IMG/VR virus record: IMGVR_UViG_3300044816_000217
Location: 1-46,546 of that record
Reading direction: 5' to 3' (one strand)
DNA: 46,546 bases
DNA from: a virus
Below are positions 1 to 45,986 of this stretch, one piece after another (within the stretch, counting starts at the first letter, position 1; each line of letters begins with the position of its first letter). The notes beneath the pieces are model-generated. The model was not told where the DNA came from and made no database searches. It saw nothing but the letters and a program-made list of their open reading frames with translations. Made by a program: the position numbers and the translations under genes.

Positions 1-1116
1 GTGCCAAACGTCCGCTTCACTGATTTGTCGGTTCGCTCCCTAAAGCCGGGCCTCTACTTTGATGAGGTCACGCCAGCCTTCGGGCTGCGCGTCGGGGCGC
101 ATCGGCGCACGTGGCTGGTGGTCAAAGGGGACCGCGCACATCGCAGCAAAGTGCGCTTGGGCCACTATCCAGCCCTCACTCTCTCAGACGCCCGCAAGAA
201 GGCGTTGGTGGCGCTTGGGAGCCCCTATGCTCCGAAGGCCAAGGCCCCGACTTATGGGGAGGCCGTCCCTGCCTTTCTTGAGGACCATTACGACGGCAAG
301 TCCGCTCGTTCGAGGCACGAAGCAACTCGCCTTCTGGGCCGCATCAATTTCCATGCGAAGCAATTGTCTGACATTGGCGACGAGGACTTGGAACGAGAAC
401 TCAGCCGTCTCGCGCATATCCCGAGCGAGCAGCTTCACGCGTTCCGCGCTCTCCGGGTTTTCTTCAAATGGTGTACGCGCCCACCGCGCCGGTTCATCAG
501 GCACTCTCCGCTAGAGGGGTTCGAGCCGCCCAGCCAGGACAAAAAAGGAACCCGAACCCTCACCGATAAAGAGCTGGTCAAAATCTGGCACGCCTGCGAC
601 CGCCCGTACGGGGGCATGGTGCGGTTGCTCATCCTTTGGGGCACGCGCAATGGTGAAACGGGCCGGCTTCGTCGCGAATGGATGGATCGCAAAGCGATCG
701 TCATCCCCGGAGAGGTTACAAAGAACAAGCGCGCCCACACGATCCCACTTCATCCGCTCGCCCGCTCAGTGCTCGCCGATCAGAAGTCCAACGGCTCATA
801 CTTTTTCCCCGGCAAGCGTATGGACGACTCCTTCTTCAAGGATGGATCGTGGGGCAAGCTTAAAAAGGAAATCGAGAAAGCGTCTGGCGTCACCGGCTGG
901 CAGCTTCGCGACATCCGCAGGACGTTCCGTTCGAACATGGCGAAGCTCAAAGTCCCGCGTGAGATATGCGAAATTCTGCTCAACCATGTGACGGGCGCGA
1001 ACAAGAACGACCTCGATGAAATTTACAATCGGTACGATTATTTTGACGAGAAGCGCGAAGCACTCGGGAAATGGGAAAAGCGTCTATCGTTGCTACTGGG
1101 AGTTCCGGGTAAGTGA
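1..1116 (+). CDS. int: Tyrosine-type site-specific integrase
   Basis: 371 aa phage integrase that would recombine the phage attP with the 3' half of a host tRNA-Gly gene. The N-terminus (about 1-75) has the SLKPGLYFDE...GLRVG pattern of the DUF4102 arm-binding domain. A core-binding domain follows, then the catalytic domain. Visible catalytic residues are R216 in GTRNGE, the basic TKNKRAHTIPL strand, R306 in RDIRRT, H329 in LLNHV and the probable nucleophile Y342 in EIYNRYDY. The box usually written HxxR begins with R303 here. The GTG start is the first base of the window, so an upstream start cannot be excluded. It is the leftmost prophage gene, matching attR at the far end. Confidence 0.95.
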   Translation: MPNVRFTDLSVRSLKPGLYFDEVTPAFGLRVGAHRRTWLVVKGDRAHRSKVRLGHYPALTLSDARKKALVALGSPYAPKAKAPTYGEAVPAFLEDHYDGKSARSRHEATRLLGRINFHAKQLSDIGDEDLERELSRLAHIPSEQLHAFRALRVFFKWCTRPPRRFIRHSPLEGFEPPSQDKKGTRTLTDKELVKIWHACDRPYGGMVRLLILWGTRNGETGRLRREWMDRKAIVIPGEVTKNKRAHTIPLHPLARSVLADQKSNGSYFFPGKRMDDSFFKDGSWGKLKKEIEKASGVTGWQLRDIRRTFRSNMAKLKVPREICEILLNHVTGANKNDLDEIYNRYDYFDEKREALGKWEKRLSLLLGVPGK

Positions 1117-35050: not shown

Positions 35051-35428
35051 ATGAAGCTCGAACAACAGGTATGCAGCCGTGACCTTGCAAAGAGGCTCAA
35101 GGAATTGGGAGTGAAGCAAGAGGGTCACTTCTGGTGGCTCGACCACAAGGACGAAGAACCGTCTCTATCGCAGGAGGGGCATTTCCATGGTTGGAACAAT
35201 GACAACAAGTGTCGCGCCTTCACCGTGGCAGAGCTTGGAGAGGTACTATGGCTAAAAGCTTCACCCGATCAGATTTTGGAGGCATACGGACAGGTGTTCA
35301 ATGTTCCTGAGACACCCACCATCACGCCTGAAGGACTAGCGCAATGTATGGAAAACGCGAGCATCGTCGCCAAAATGCTCATCTACCTACTGGAAAATAA
35401 CCTGATCGACCGTGCCACCCTGCGCTAA
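35051..35428 (+). CDS. KLEQQVCS-type phage protein, copy 1
   Basis: 125 aa. It starts KLEQQVCSRDLAKRLKELGVKQ and ends AKMLIYLLENNLID, like the gene at 42496; the middle is different. This kind of short phage protein is recurrent, but I know no function. The start follows the previous stop by 1 nt and lacks a Shine-Dalgarno site. Confidence 0.75.
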   Translation: MKLEQQVCSRDLAKRLKELGVKQEGHFWWLDHKDEEPSLSQEGHFHGWNNDNKCRAFTVAELGEVLWLKASPDQILEAYGQVFNVPETPTITPEGLAQCMENASIVAKMLIYLLENNLIDRATLR

Positions 35429-42109: not shown

Positions 42110-42499
42110 ATGAAAATTCCTGAAGAAGCAATCGCAAAGGCGATAGAAGGAGGGTGGATACCCAAAGGGGTTGAGGCACATAAGATCACTGGCTGGACGT
42201 TAGACGATGGAGTGCTGAAAATCCTCGGCACTTATAACAAGACAAAATCAGTCACCGATTACATCCTTGTCGAACAGATCGCCCTGGACCCCTCATTCTG
42301 GCAGAGCTTAGGGAAGGCGTTGGGGTGGGGCATCAGAAAAACAATGTTCCACACCGAAATCCAAGATGATGAATGGTATCGCAACATTGAGAACAAGAAA
42401 CATGCCGTTTATCAGGGGACAGAGTTCGCTAACCTCATCCTCACAGGCGGCGACACAGACGCTTACTGGAAAGGATTATTAGATAAAACGAGCGTATGA
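42110..42499 (+). CDS. Hypothetical early phage protein
   Basis: 129 aa. KIPEEAIAKAIEGGW...EQIALDPSFWQSLGKALGW: the ALDPSFWQSLGKALGW motif recurs in short phage proteins of unknown function. It is in the early operon and coupled to the next gene by ATGA. Confidence 0.7.
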   Translation: MKIPEEAIAKAIEGGWIPKGVEAHKITGWTLDDGVLKILGTYNKTKSVTDYILVEQIALDPSFWQSLGKALGWGIRKTMFHTEIQDDEWYRNIENKKHAVYQGTEFANLILTGGDTDAYWKGLLDKTSV

Positions 42500-42876
42500 A
42501 ACTCGAACAACAAGTATGCAGCCTCGACCTCGCAAAGAGGCTCAAGGAATTGGGGGTGAAGCAAAGCAGCTTCCTGTATTGGTTCAAATACACAGAAGAC
42601 CGTGACTGCTTCTTGAACGTAGGCTTGCCGACCGGAGCATATAACGGGAGCGTTCATGATCACCACGCCGAAAACTGGCGTGATGGCGAAATCTGGTCAG
42701 CCTTCACCGTCGCAGAGCTTGGGGAGATGCTGTCGCCGACGATGGTAGAGGGAAAGAGATTTTGGTTCAGCGACACAAGGGAGGCGAGAAGCAACGCGAC
42801 ATTTATGATCAACGAAGCAAACTCCCGCGCCGAAATGCTCATCTACCTACTGGAAAATAAGCTCATCGCTTCGTGA
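42496..42876 (+). CDS. KLEQQVCS-type phage protein, copy 2
   Basis: 126 aa. N-terminus KLEQQVCSLDLAKRLKELGVKQ and C-terminus AEMLIYLLENKLIAS nearly match the gene at 35051; the middle differs. The DNA ends are far more similar than the middle, implying recombination or gene conversion. It is the last gene of the early operon, convergent with the repressor. Confidence 0.75.
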   Translation: MKLEQQVCSLDLAKRLKELGVKQSSFLYWFKYTEDRDCFLNVGLPTGAYNGSVHDHHAENWRDGEIWSAFTVAELGEMLSPTMVEGKRFWFSDTREARSNATFMINEANSRAEMLIYLLENKLIAS

Positions 42877-42893: not shown

Positions 42894-43256
42894 CTACTCA
42901 GAATTCGACAGGCCGACGACCAGCGCGACAACCGAATTGCGGACACGCTGCTCAGTGATCTTCTCGAAGGCTTCCGCCAGCTTGAAAGCATCTCGCTTGC
43001 TCAGAAACTCGATAGGCGCTCGACCTTTTCCCGCTCCCTTCACCCCGTCAAAAAAAGACTTCACGGGCACATCAAGAACCCCTGCAATGGCAAGCAGCCG
43101 TCCAGCGCCTACGCGGTTCGTTCCCTTCTCGTACTTCTGTATCTGCTGGAAGGTTACGCCGATCTGCGTTCCTAAGTCAGTCTGGGACATCTTCGCGGCC
43201 AGCCGATAAACCCGTAAATTATTTCCGACCAGCACATCGTTGGGATGGGGAGCCAT
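42894..43256 (-). CDS. XRE-family repressor
   Basis: 120 aa. The HTH_3 domain at about 12-66 (NNLRVYRLAAKMSQTDLGTQIGVTFQQIQKYEKGTNRVGAGRLLAIAGVLDVPVKSFF) is the Cro/C1 fold; a short helical C-terminus (SKRDAFKLAEAFEKI) probably dimerises it. No cleavable LexA-like domain, so induction would not use RecA-driven self-cleavage. Candidate lysogeny repressor, divergent from the serine recombinase, with an operator-like dyad 83 bp upstream. Confidence 0.85.
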   Translation of the reverse strand: MAPHPNDVLVGNNLRVYRLAAKMSQTDLGTQIGVTFQQIQKYEKGTNRVGAGRLLAIAGVLDVPVKSFFDGVKGAGKGRAPIEFLSKRDAFKLAEAFEKITEQRVRNSVVALVVGLSNSE

Positions 43257-43293
43257 GATTTACAACCTCTGTGGAGTCCGCATAAAAGCAGAA

Positions 43294-43456
43294 ATCTTGA
43301 ATTCTGCCGGACCTGTAAAGTGCTGAAATCGCTAAGTATTTGGTAAACTACCTAAGTGAGTTCCCAAACCACGGCACAACCCGTTTTATTGCGTAAACGC
43401 TCGATATTCTCGCAATCCGAGCATGCGACACACTCTCCGCTTGCAGAATTCAAGAT
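43294..43456. promoter_or_regulatory. Inverted 14-bp sites flanking the repressor/recombinase intergenic region
   Basis: ATCTTGAATTCTGC (43294-43307) recurs as its exact reverse complement GCAGAATTCAAGAT (43443-43456). Flanking bases also agree partly (GCA at the outer arm in both). Each copy is itself part of an imperfect dyad (GCAGAA...TTCTGC in the left copy). The 135 bp between holds the operator-like dyad. Candidate crossover or binding sites for the adjacent serine recombinase; one site ends 12 nt before its ATG. Confidence 0.55.
43339..43355. promoter_or_regulatory. Operator-like dyad
   Basis: TTTGGTA-AAC-TACCTAA is a 17-bp dyad (TTnGGTA/TACCnAA) in the divergent control region, a good size for an XRE dimer. 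CTAAGT occurs as a direct repeat on both sides of it. Confidence 0.45.
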
Positions 43457-43468
43457 ATTTGCCGGGCT

Positions 43469-44020
43469 ATGAACCTCTACGGCTACGCCCGCGTAAGCAC
43501 CAACGGACAGGCACTCGACGCTCAAGTGTTGCAGCTTGAAGCGGCTGGCTGCGCTCGCGTTTTTCGCGAGAAGGTCAGCGGCGCGAAGACCGATCGCCCT
43601 GAATTGAAGAAGATGCTCAAGCTTCTCGGGCCGGGCGGAATGGTTCTCGTGACCAGACTAGACCGCCTCGCCCGTTCCACCCGAGATCTTCTCAACATCC
43701 TCGCGCTAATAAGCGAAAAGAGCGCTGCCTTTAGATCGCTCGGGGACATCTGGGCCGACACCACGACCGCGCACGGCCGCTTGATGCTCACCGTCTTGGG
43801 AGGATTAGCGGAATTCGAGAGGGAGTTGATACGCACCAGGACGGCTGAGGGTCGCGCTCGAGCGGTGGCGATGGGTGTGCGACTTGGTCGCCGTCCAAAG
43901 CTCGATCAGGAGCAACGCCGGCAAGCCTGCGCTCGCAAGGCTGCTGGCGAGGACGTGCGGTTGATTGCCAAAGACTTCAACGTATCGGATTCGACGATCT
44001 CACGGCTGCAATGCGAATGA
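43469..44020 (+). CDS. Serine recombinase (resolvase/invertase family)
   Basis: 183 aa. YGYARVSTNGQALDAQVLQLEAAGCARVF contains the catalytic Ser10, then EKVSGAKTDRPELKKML, LVTRLDRLARSTRDLLNIL and AEFERELIRTRTAEGRARA (E-helix). The C-terminal HTH (EDVRLIAKDFNVSDSTISRLQ) binds DNA. This size and layout equals Tn3-type resolvases and Gin/Hin invertases. Together with flanking inverted sites it may run a DNA switch or resolve multimers. It is a second recombinase in addition to the tyrosine integrase. Confidence 0.93.
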   Translation: MNLYGYARVSTNGQALDAQVLQLEAAGCARVFREKVSGAKTDRPELKKMLKLLGPGGMVLVTRLDRLARSTRDLLNILALISEKSAAFRSLGDIWADTTTAHGRLMLTVLGGLAEFERELIRTRTAEGRARAVAMGVRLGRRPKLDQEQRRQACARKAAGEDVRLIAKDFNVSDSTISRLQCE

Positions 44021-44359: not shown

Positions 44360-45016
44360 GTGGCGAAACAAGCAGCCAAGCTCACAAGCGGACGCGACAT
44401 CGTTCGAGCGCTGTTCCTTGCCAACTTGGGCAAGATTGTCACCAAGGAGCAGATTATCAAAGCCATCTGTACCGGGCTAGGTGTGGATGATTACGAAAAT
44501 TGGCACCAGCGGCTTTCTGAACTCCGTACCGACGAAGGTTTTACAATCCTCTCCGGGAGGGACCGCAAGGACCTCAAGCCGGGCCAGTACCTTCTCCTCT
44601 CGACCGAACGACGCGAGATCGCCAGCAAACGCACGAGGCCAACTCCTGAAACTTGGAGAGCCGTTCTGAAGCGTGCTGGCAACTGCTGTGAATGGAAAGA
44701 AGGCGGTATTGCCTGCGGTCTACACAACGGTGCCATCGACCCGGTTGGAGGCGGAACCGTCAAACTGACTCCCGACCATATGACGCCGCACTCAATCGAC
44801 CCCAAGTCAGATCCCGACAAGCCTGACCAGTGGCAGGCACTGTGTGGCCGCCATCAGGTCACCAAACGGAACTACTGGGATAGCACGACCGGGAAACTCA
44901 ACGCGGTCGCCATCGTACAGGCAGCAGCCGAAAAAGAGAAAGATGTGATCTTCGGCATGCTTCTCGAATATTACGGATTCACAAGGGACGCTGACGGCAA
45001 TATAAGAAAGGCATGA
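44360..45016 (+). CDS. HNH-type restriction endonuclease
   Basis: 218 aa, GTG start. The N-terminal ~90 residues are helical (GRDIVRALFLANLGKIVTKEQIIKAICTGLG: winged-helix like). The C-terminal domain has CCEWKEGGIACGL, then LTPDH (D139-H140), and LCGRHQVTKRNYWD (C162, H165, N-containing), an HNH/beta-beta-alpha-metal nuclease pattern. It is followed by a DNA methyltransferase overlapping by 4 nt (ATGA), so it is most likely a type II restriction enzyme. Its specificity cannot be read from the sequence. Confidence 0.85.
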   Translation: MAKQAAKLTSGRDIVRALFLANLGKIVTKEQIIKAICTGLGVDDYENWHQRLSELRTDEGFTILSGRDRKDLKPGQYLLLSTERREIASKRTRPTPETWRAVLKRAGNCCEWKEGGIACGLHNGAIDPVGGGTVKLTPDHMTPHSIDPKSDPDKPDQWQALCGRHQVTKRNYWDSTTGKLNAVAIVQAAAEKEKDVIFGMLLEYYGFTRDADGNIRKA

Positions 45017-45870
45017 ACAAGCCTCTCAAACGCCCTCAGCCCGAAACCGCTCCCGCCGAGCGCATCAGCTTCCTTCCTGCCCAAGATGTCTTCGATGCAT
45101 TCGACACGATCGAGCGCATGGACATCCGGCCCAAGTGCACGATGCTCGACCCTTGGTACAACAAGGGTGTTGGCGGCGTTATCGACAATTACGACCAGTT
45201 CATTGAACGTCTGCTTGACCGCGCATGCGCTATTAGCGAGCACGTCTATCTTTGGGGCTTCCCCGAGATCATTGGTCCGTATGTTCGCTCGGTGCCGAAA
45301 TCACACGAACTCGTCGCTTGGCTCACTTGGTATTACAAGAACAATCCCTCGGTCATTCGCGGCTGGCGCAGCAGCCAAATGGCATGCCTCCACATAGCGA
45401 CACCCGACGCGAAGATGTACCCGCAGAACTTCCTAAATACCGTCCAGAAGGAACGTCTCGCCAACAAGAAGCTACGATACATTCCCGGTCCAACCAGCGT
45501 TATCGAAAGTGCTCTCTTGATCGGGTTCGTCGGCAAAAAAGAACAGACCGGCCACCCCGCCCAAAAGCCGATGCCCGTTTACGACAAGCTTGTTCGCATG
45601 GTCACAGAGGAAGACGACCTCATCTTTGATCCCATGTGCGGTTCGGGGACGACCGGCGCGGTAGCACTTGTTCGCAACCGTCGCGCCATCCTCTGCGACA
45701 TGGAAGAAGAGTATCTCGACATCTCTCGCAACCGCCTCACCGACGACCAAACCGGCTTCGCTGCAAAGCTGGACCTTGCAGGCAACAACCCCGACATTAT
45801 CAAGCGTCCCAAGCGACCGGCTGTCATCATGGAGAGCGAGCTACCTTTCGAGTTCGACAGTACTTCTTAG
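45013..45870 (+). CDS. DNA methyltransferase (amino-group, beta-like)
   Basis: 285 aa. Catalytic motif IV is TMLDPWYNKG (D46-P-W-Y49; a variant of DPPY) and precedes motif I DPMCGSGTTGAVALVRNRRAILCDMEEEYLDISRNRL (about 206-240), the beta-class order. LIGFVGKKEQTGHPAQKPMPVYDKLVRMVTEEDDLIFDPMCGSG is the typical motif X/I link. It would methylate adenine N6 or cytosine N4 and protect the lysogen from the HNH nuclease. Last prophage gene before attR. Confidence 0.9.
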   Translation: MNKPLKRPQPETAPAERISFLPAQDVFDAFDTIERMDIRPKCTMLDPWYNKGVGGVIDNYDQFIERLLDRACAISEHVYLWGFPEIIGPYVRSVPKSHELVAWLTWYYKNNPSVIRGWRSSQMACLHIATPDAKMYPQNFLNTVQKERLANKKLRYIPGPTSVIESALLIGFVGKKEQTGHPAQKPMPVYDKLVRMVTEEDDLIFDPMCGSGTTGAVALVRNRRAILCDMEEEYLDISRNRLTDDQTGFAAKLDLAGNNPDIIKRPKRPAVIMESELPFEFDSTS

Positions 45871-45940: not shown

Positions 45941-45986
45941 GCTTCCCAAGCTGCATACGAGGGTTCGATTCCCTTCGCCCGCTCCA
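45941..45986 (+). other. attR: 3' half of tRNA-Gly(CCC)
   Basis: From GCTTCCCAAGC (anticodon stem-loop with CCC) through the T-arm GAGGG-TTCGATT-CCCTT to the acceptor strand CGCCCGC, discriminator T and CCA at 45986. The 5' half of the tRNA is absent: the sequence before 45941 cannot form the D-arm or a GCGGGCG acceptor strand. GC content rises to the right. Confidence 0.9.

Follow-up and report, generated by a model that had tools for sequence, protein, structure and literature searches.

The stretch of viral DNA that we analysed (46,546 nucleotides, hereafter the window) has ends of the prophage type: a tyrosine integrase gene occupies the left end and a sequence resembling the 3' end of a tRNA lies near the right end, which together argue that the window is a prophage. 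It encodes a small serine recombinase, whose two domains were recognised in a profile search (PF00239, E 8e-42; HTH_7, PF02796, E 2e-5). A 212-bp intergenic region separates this gene from that of a divergent XRE-type regulator. The coordinates of these and the other features are collected in Table 1.

Table 1. Positions in the window of the genes, sites and candidate elements described in the text.
Feature	Position	Strand	Remarks
Tyrosine integrase	1-1116		left end
Protein of related pair, first	35051-35428		
Protein of related pair, second	42496-42876		
XRE/HTH_3 regulator	42894-43256	-	divergent; neighbour of the cassette, not an obligatory part
Site A	43285-43310	.	26-bp dyad, centre TT at 43297/43298
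Extended left arm	43288-43307		20 bp
14-bp repeat, left copy	43294-43307		ATCTTGAATTCTGC
Candidate extended -10 of recombinase promoter	43341-43349	+	TGGTAAACT; consensus TGNTARACT
GGTA/TACC dyad	43342-43352		
Candidate leaderless ORF	43356-43472	+	38 codons; stop overlaps recombinase start (ATGA)
Site B	43440-43465	.	26-bp dyad, centre AA at 43452/43453; immediately 5' of recombinase start codon
14-bp repeat, right copy	43443-43456		GCAGAATTCAAGAT
Extended right arm	43443-43462		20 bp
Serine recombinase	43469-44020	+	183 aa; resolvase N-terminal domain plus HTH; catalytic residues intact
Protein with weak HNH match	44360-45016		
N6/N4 DNA methylase	45013-45870		beside attachment end
tRNA-like sequence, 3' end	45963-45986		right end

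The initial annotation had noticed a perfect 14-bp inverted repeat with one copy at each end of the divergent intergenic region between the XRE and recombinase genes, and we could confirm it: the two copies, ATCTTGAATTCTGC and its exact reverse complement GCAGAATTCAAGAT, are separated by 135 bp. Its estimate that such a repeat would rarely arise by chance also held, as a non-overlapping exact inverted repeat of at least 14 bp appeared in 3 of 20,000 Markov shuffles of the 212-bp region. The arms extend to 20 bp each with 90% complementarity. The imperfect dyad described in each copy proved to be 26 bp long, with the 14-bp repeat as its core, and is built as two half-sites of 12 bp separated by a dinucleotide (12-2-12). 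We refer to the two dyads as sites A and B. The outer half of A overlaps a candidate -10 element of the leftward gene.

Both sites were present, in inverted orientation, in all 16 phage loci with a related recombinase, that is the window, 13 further loci whose recombinase is 81-86% identical and two at 75% and 67%. The spacing from A to B was 155 bp in 14 of them, 154 bp in one and 156 bp in one. The 6-bp cores of the two sites were invariant, and every locus had TT at the centre of A and AA at that of B, giving a matched 2-bp overlap. Conservation per column reached 91% in both A (13 of 20 core columns invariant) and B (12 of 20), versus 52% outside A. The 14 records that could be searched whole held two copies each, with no third copy elsewhere. 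Relative to the start codon, site B lies 2 bases further off in one of the loci L049 and L145 and 2 bases closer in the other, and in both A is displaced along with it.

The surroundings of the sites were far less constant. Among the 13 other records searched, a single one has a relative of the window's terminase (some records are fragments), and the left neighbour is an XRE gene in ten loci and an unrelated gene in six. Because most records are without a relative of the terminase and the left genes differ, site A, the middle segment, site B and the recombinase gene are, on sequence comparison, one co-inherited portable cassette, of which we found no description in the open-access literature. 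The XRE gene, replaced in six loci, is thus no fixed partner. Other small genes stand left of A in L040, L045, L046, L048 and L049, one type carrying a zinc-finger-like CDEC-KPL motif; in these loci A seems to differ in its outer half according to the left gene, which could reflect exchange at the site.

Between the sites, the initial annotation had placed an operator dyad, GGTA/TACC. The dyad is present in the window but is not conserved as such: nine of the 16 loci have A or C at the second position of GGTA, while TGNTARACTACCT is kept, and the operator was therefore ruled out. The conserved block fits an extended -10 element of a recombinase promoter, matching the TGNTARACT pattern in all 16 loci; a scan for the sigma-70 promoter consensus found no site. 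An ATG or GTG follows the TGNTARACTACCT block by 6-7 bases, and in the window it opens the candidate leaderless reading frame, whose last codons contain site B. A leader frame of 37 or 38 codons with its stop overlapping the recombinase start was found in 14 loci; four of these have an overlapping upstream GTG, and there the second start was taken as that of the frame. The exceptions are L044, where the frame stops two codons early, and L145, where it continues into the recombinase. A conserved leader peptide was ruled out, as pN/pS was equal in all three frames. With no selection acting on the peptide, the only function of the frame may be translational coupling to the recombinase; it also constrains the distance from promoter to B, which may account for part of the rigid spacing. 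Site B itself is conserved as DNA, because L049 reads it in another frame yet keeps its sequence. The recombinase is under strong purifying selection (pN 0.10, pS 0.65) and its catalytic residues are invariant, which argues that strand exchange matters somewhere.

The nearest relatives of the recombinase outside the phage group are encoded by alphaproteobacterial plasmids (57-68% identity), including one of Neorhizobium sp. SOG26, and several of them adjoin ParA and ribbon-helix-helix genes. The phage sequences formed a clade with full support (100/100), nested inside the plasmid group with moderate support (92/89). The plasmid recombinases have no XRE gene alongside, and carry upstream a single dyad of the same type, GCAnAAATC-AA-GATTTnTGC, together with half-sites in head-to-tail order that, in almost all plasmids, lie at 47 bp from the centre of the dyad; three of the 11 plasmid dyads depart from AA at the centre. 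In plasmids L150-L160 a Sin-like site is common to the recombinases, and the head-to-tail half-sites, which begin at those 47 bp, lie 13 bp apart. Because the two sites accompany the gene through unrelated phages and the same dyad stands upstream of the plasmid relatives, in the layout of a Sin resolvase site, A and B are almost certainly the binding and crossover sites of the adjacent recombinase, and the suggestion that the repeats are recombinase sites was thus well placed. The position of the dyads, at both ends of the divergent region and one by each start codon, would also suit operators of the XRE repressor with no role in recombination. This is highly improbable: the sites persist in the six phages with a non-XRE left gene, and beside plasmid recombinases that lack an XRE gene altogether, and we ruled the reading out.

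The Sin resolvase site comprises an inverted site I and a head-to-tail site II within 86 bp (PMC2428073, PMC2764113). The window's recombinase resembles Sin of the Staphylococcus plasmids (Sin/resH) in being a small serine recombinase with an inverted pair of half-sites as crossover site I, and its plasmid relatives share with Sin a site II of half-sites in head-to-tail order and an overall length of about 86 bp. The phage cassette differs: a head-to-tail site II was looked for in the window and in the phage relatives and was not found, and a second inverted site lies instead 155 bp off in the opposite orientation. The recombinase is also of low similarity to the solved chain of bin3/Sin type (E 1.6e-17).

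Another reading is that the cassette is a plain res-like site with no loop for regulation, in which crossover takes place at one of the two sites (A or B) and the other is accessory; its recombinase would resolve tandem prophages or dimeric phage genomes. Resolution by an integrative element has a precedent in SGI1, whose resolvase removes SGI1 multimers, although its site is a 107-bp Tn3-type site with three subsites, unlike the layout seen here (PMC12217951). A single-copy prophage would moreover display no rearrangement, as observed, and the nearest relatives with their Sin-like 86-bp layout lie, in several cases, near partition or replication genes. We nevertheless consider this reading improbable: site II is missing in the phages, the plasmid relatives have about 60 bp from centre to centre, far less than the 155 bp between A and B, and neither site looks like an accessory one, each appearing competent for crossover. 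Two other roles were ruled out. Integration of the phage by the serine recombinase is at odds with the tyrosine integrase at one end of the window and the tRNA-end sequence at the other (a tyrosine integrase was found in 10 of 14 records), and partition of a plasmid-prophage with the finding of ParA (PF13614) in none of the 14 records.

The initial annotation had proposed that the recombinase inverts the segment between the repeats. On paper the sites are indeed competent for this. The cassette resembles the Hin, Gin and Cin invertases in having two 26-bp sites, the length of hix sites (PMC3798978), in inverted order and with a non-palindromic central dinucleotide; like Hin it has a candidate promoter between the sites, and like the Hin/Gin type its recombinase is a small protein with an N-terminal resolvase domain and a C-terminal HTH. 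With matched AA/TT overlaps in 16 of 16 loci, conserved spacing and intact catalytic residues, inversion is chemically possible as judged from the sites, and the overlap rule would permit only inversion between A and B. Exchange of A with B would flip the 155-bp segment and turn the promoter from the recombinase to the leftward gene, a conditional, self-silencing event.

The orientation of the segment argues otherwise. The conserved middle element points one way in all 16 loci and in one truncated copy besides, and when 2.9 million viral contigs (IMG/VR) were scanned with a pattern able to match either orientation, the 13 true copies recovered were all forward; two further pattern matches (L171 and L174) were discarded as chance matches in coding sequence. 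Sixteen identical orientations would be very unlikely if both states were equally common, and it is possible that the flipped state is rare, conditional or disfavoured. In addition, A and B show consistent differences in the sequence beyond their inner half-sites, and the tree groups the recombinase with plasmid resolvases and splits it from one Gin-like and one Fin sequence (100/99), outside the invertase branch. Finally, the segment is short compared to those of the invertases (about 1 kb or more). Inversion of the 155-bp segment is thus less likely, on present evidence, than exchange between genome copies, and we regard such a flip as unlikely, if a serious contender. Slightly more doubtful is the fuller proposal of a portable cassette, evolved from a plasmid resolvase, whose recombinase flips its promoter segment, silences itself and re-aims the promoter at the opposite gene. 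Since the repressor gene is exchangeable, being replaced by unrelated genes as described above, and the orientation is constant, the claim of a lysis-lysogeny switch linked to the repressor is not supported. A wrong lead is thereby removed; the window's XRE protein is itself only a putative lysogeny repressor.

The reading that we tentatively favour, and hold to be nearly an even bet, is that A and B form a matched site pair bridged by the recombinase, which would loop and autoregulate its own promoter, in a cassette whose ancestor was a plasmid resolvase of the Sin type. Dimers of the recombinase, one per site, would bridge A with B across the 155 bp, probably assisted by a host DNA-bending protein. 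Bridging would loop out the recombinase promoter, with A at about -58 and B at about +97 from the inferred start, so that the recombinase would limit its own expression; its occupancy of A would cover the leftward gene's promoter too. Strand exchange would still be selected, its likeliest partners being two cassette copies in tandem or dimeric phage genomes, while the 155-bp segment itself would be kept in one orientation. The conservation, pairing and spacing of the sites, their linkage to the recombinase family, the fixed orientation and the purifying selection are established by the sequence comparison; the binding, the looping, the repression and the reaction catalysed are inferred.

Synapsis of A with B is suggested by a spacing that is kept where other distances shift and by centres that are matched in every locus; the matched centres in the phages, as opposed to the three departures among the plasmid dyads, would follow from a need to keep two sites matched. 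These observations do no more than suggest synapsis, as the loci share ancestry and insertions are also limited by the leader frame. Two further points count against the loop: two equivalent, inverted, overlap-matched sites resemble an invertase pair more than a resolvase site, and the head-to-tail site II seen in the plasmid relatives is missing from the phages, so that standard resolution is at most putative. The initial annotation had itself offered a res-like or autoregulatory site as an alternative, and this fares better than its switch. In the gal operon, GalR and HU form a loop in which two operators flank the promoter at fixed helical phase. The cassette is similar in having two sites that flank a candidate promoter at fixed phase; it differs in that the presumed bridging protein is the recombinase, and its loop is only proposed.

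All together, one recombinase family appears in two layouts: its plasmid members have a Sin-like site, and those of temperate phages have two crossover-type sites, inverted and at a fixed spacing of 155 bp. Comparing the two layouts offers a natural test of how a resolvase may become an invertase or a looping regulator, and the site map of the window makes that test direct.

Two observations concern other genes of the window. The protein with a weak HNH match and the DNA methylase, whose genes overlap, are a possible restriction-modification pair. Two related proteins of 125-126 residues, encoded about 7 kb apart, both start with MKLEQQVCS-DLAKRLKELGVKQ, and the second matches phrog_31971.
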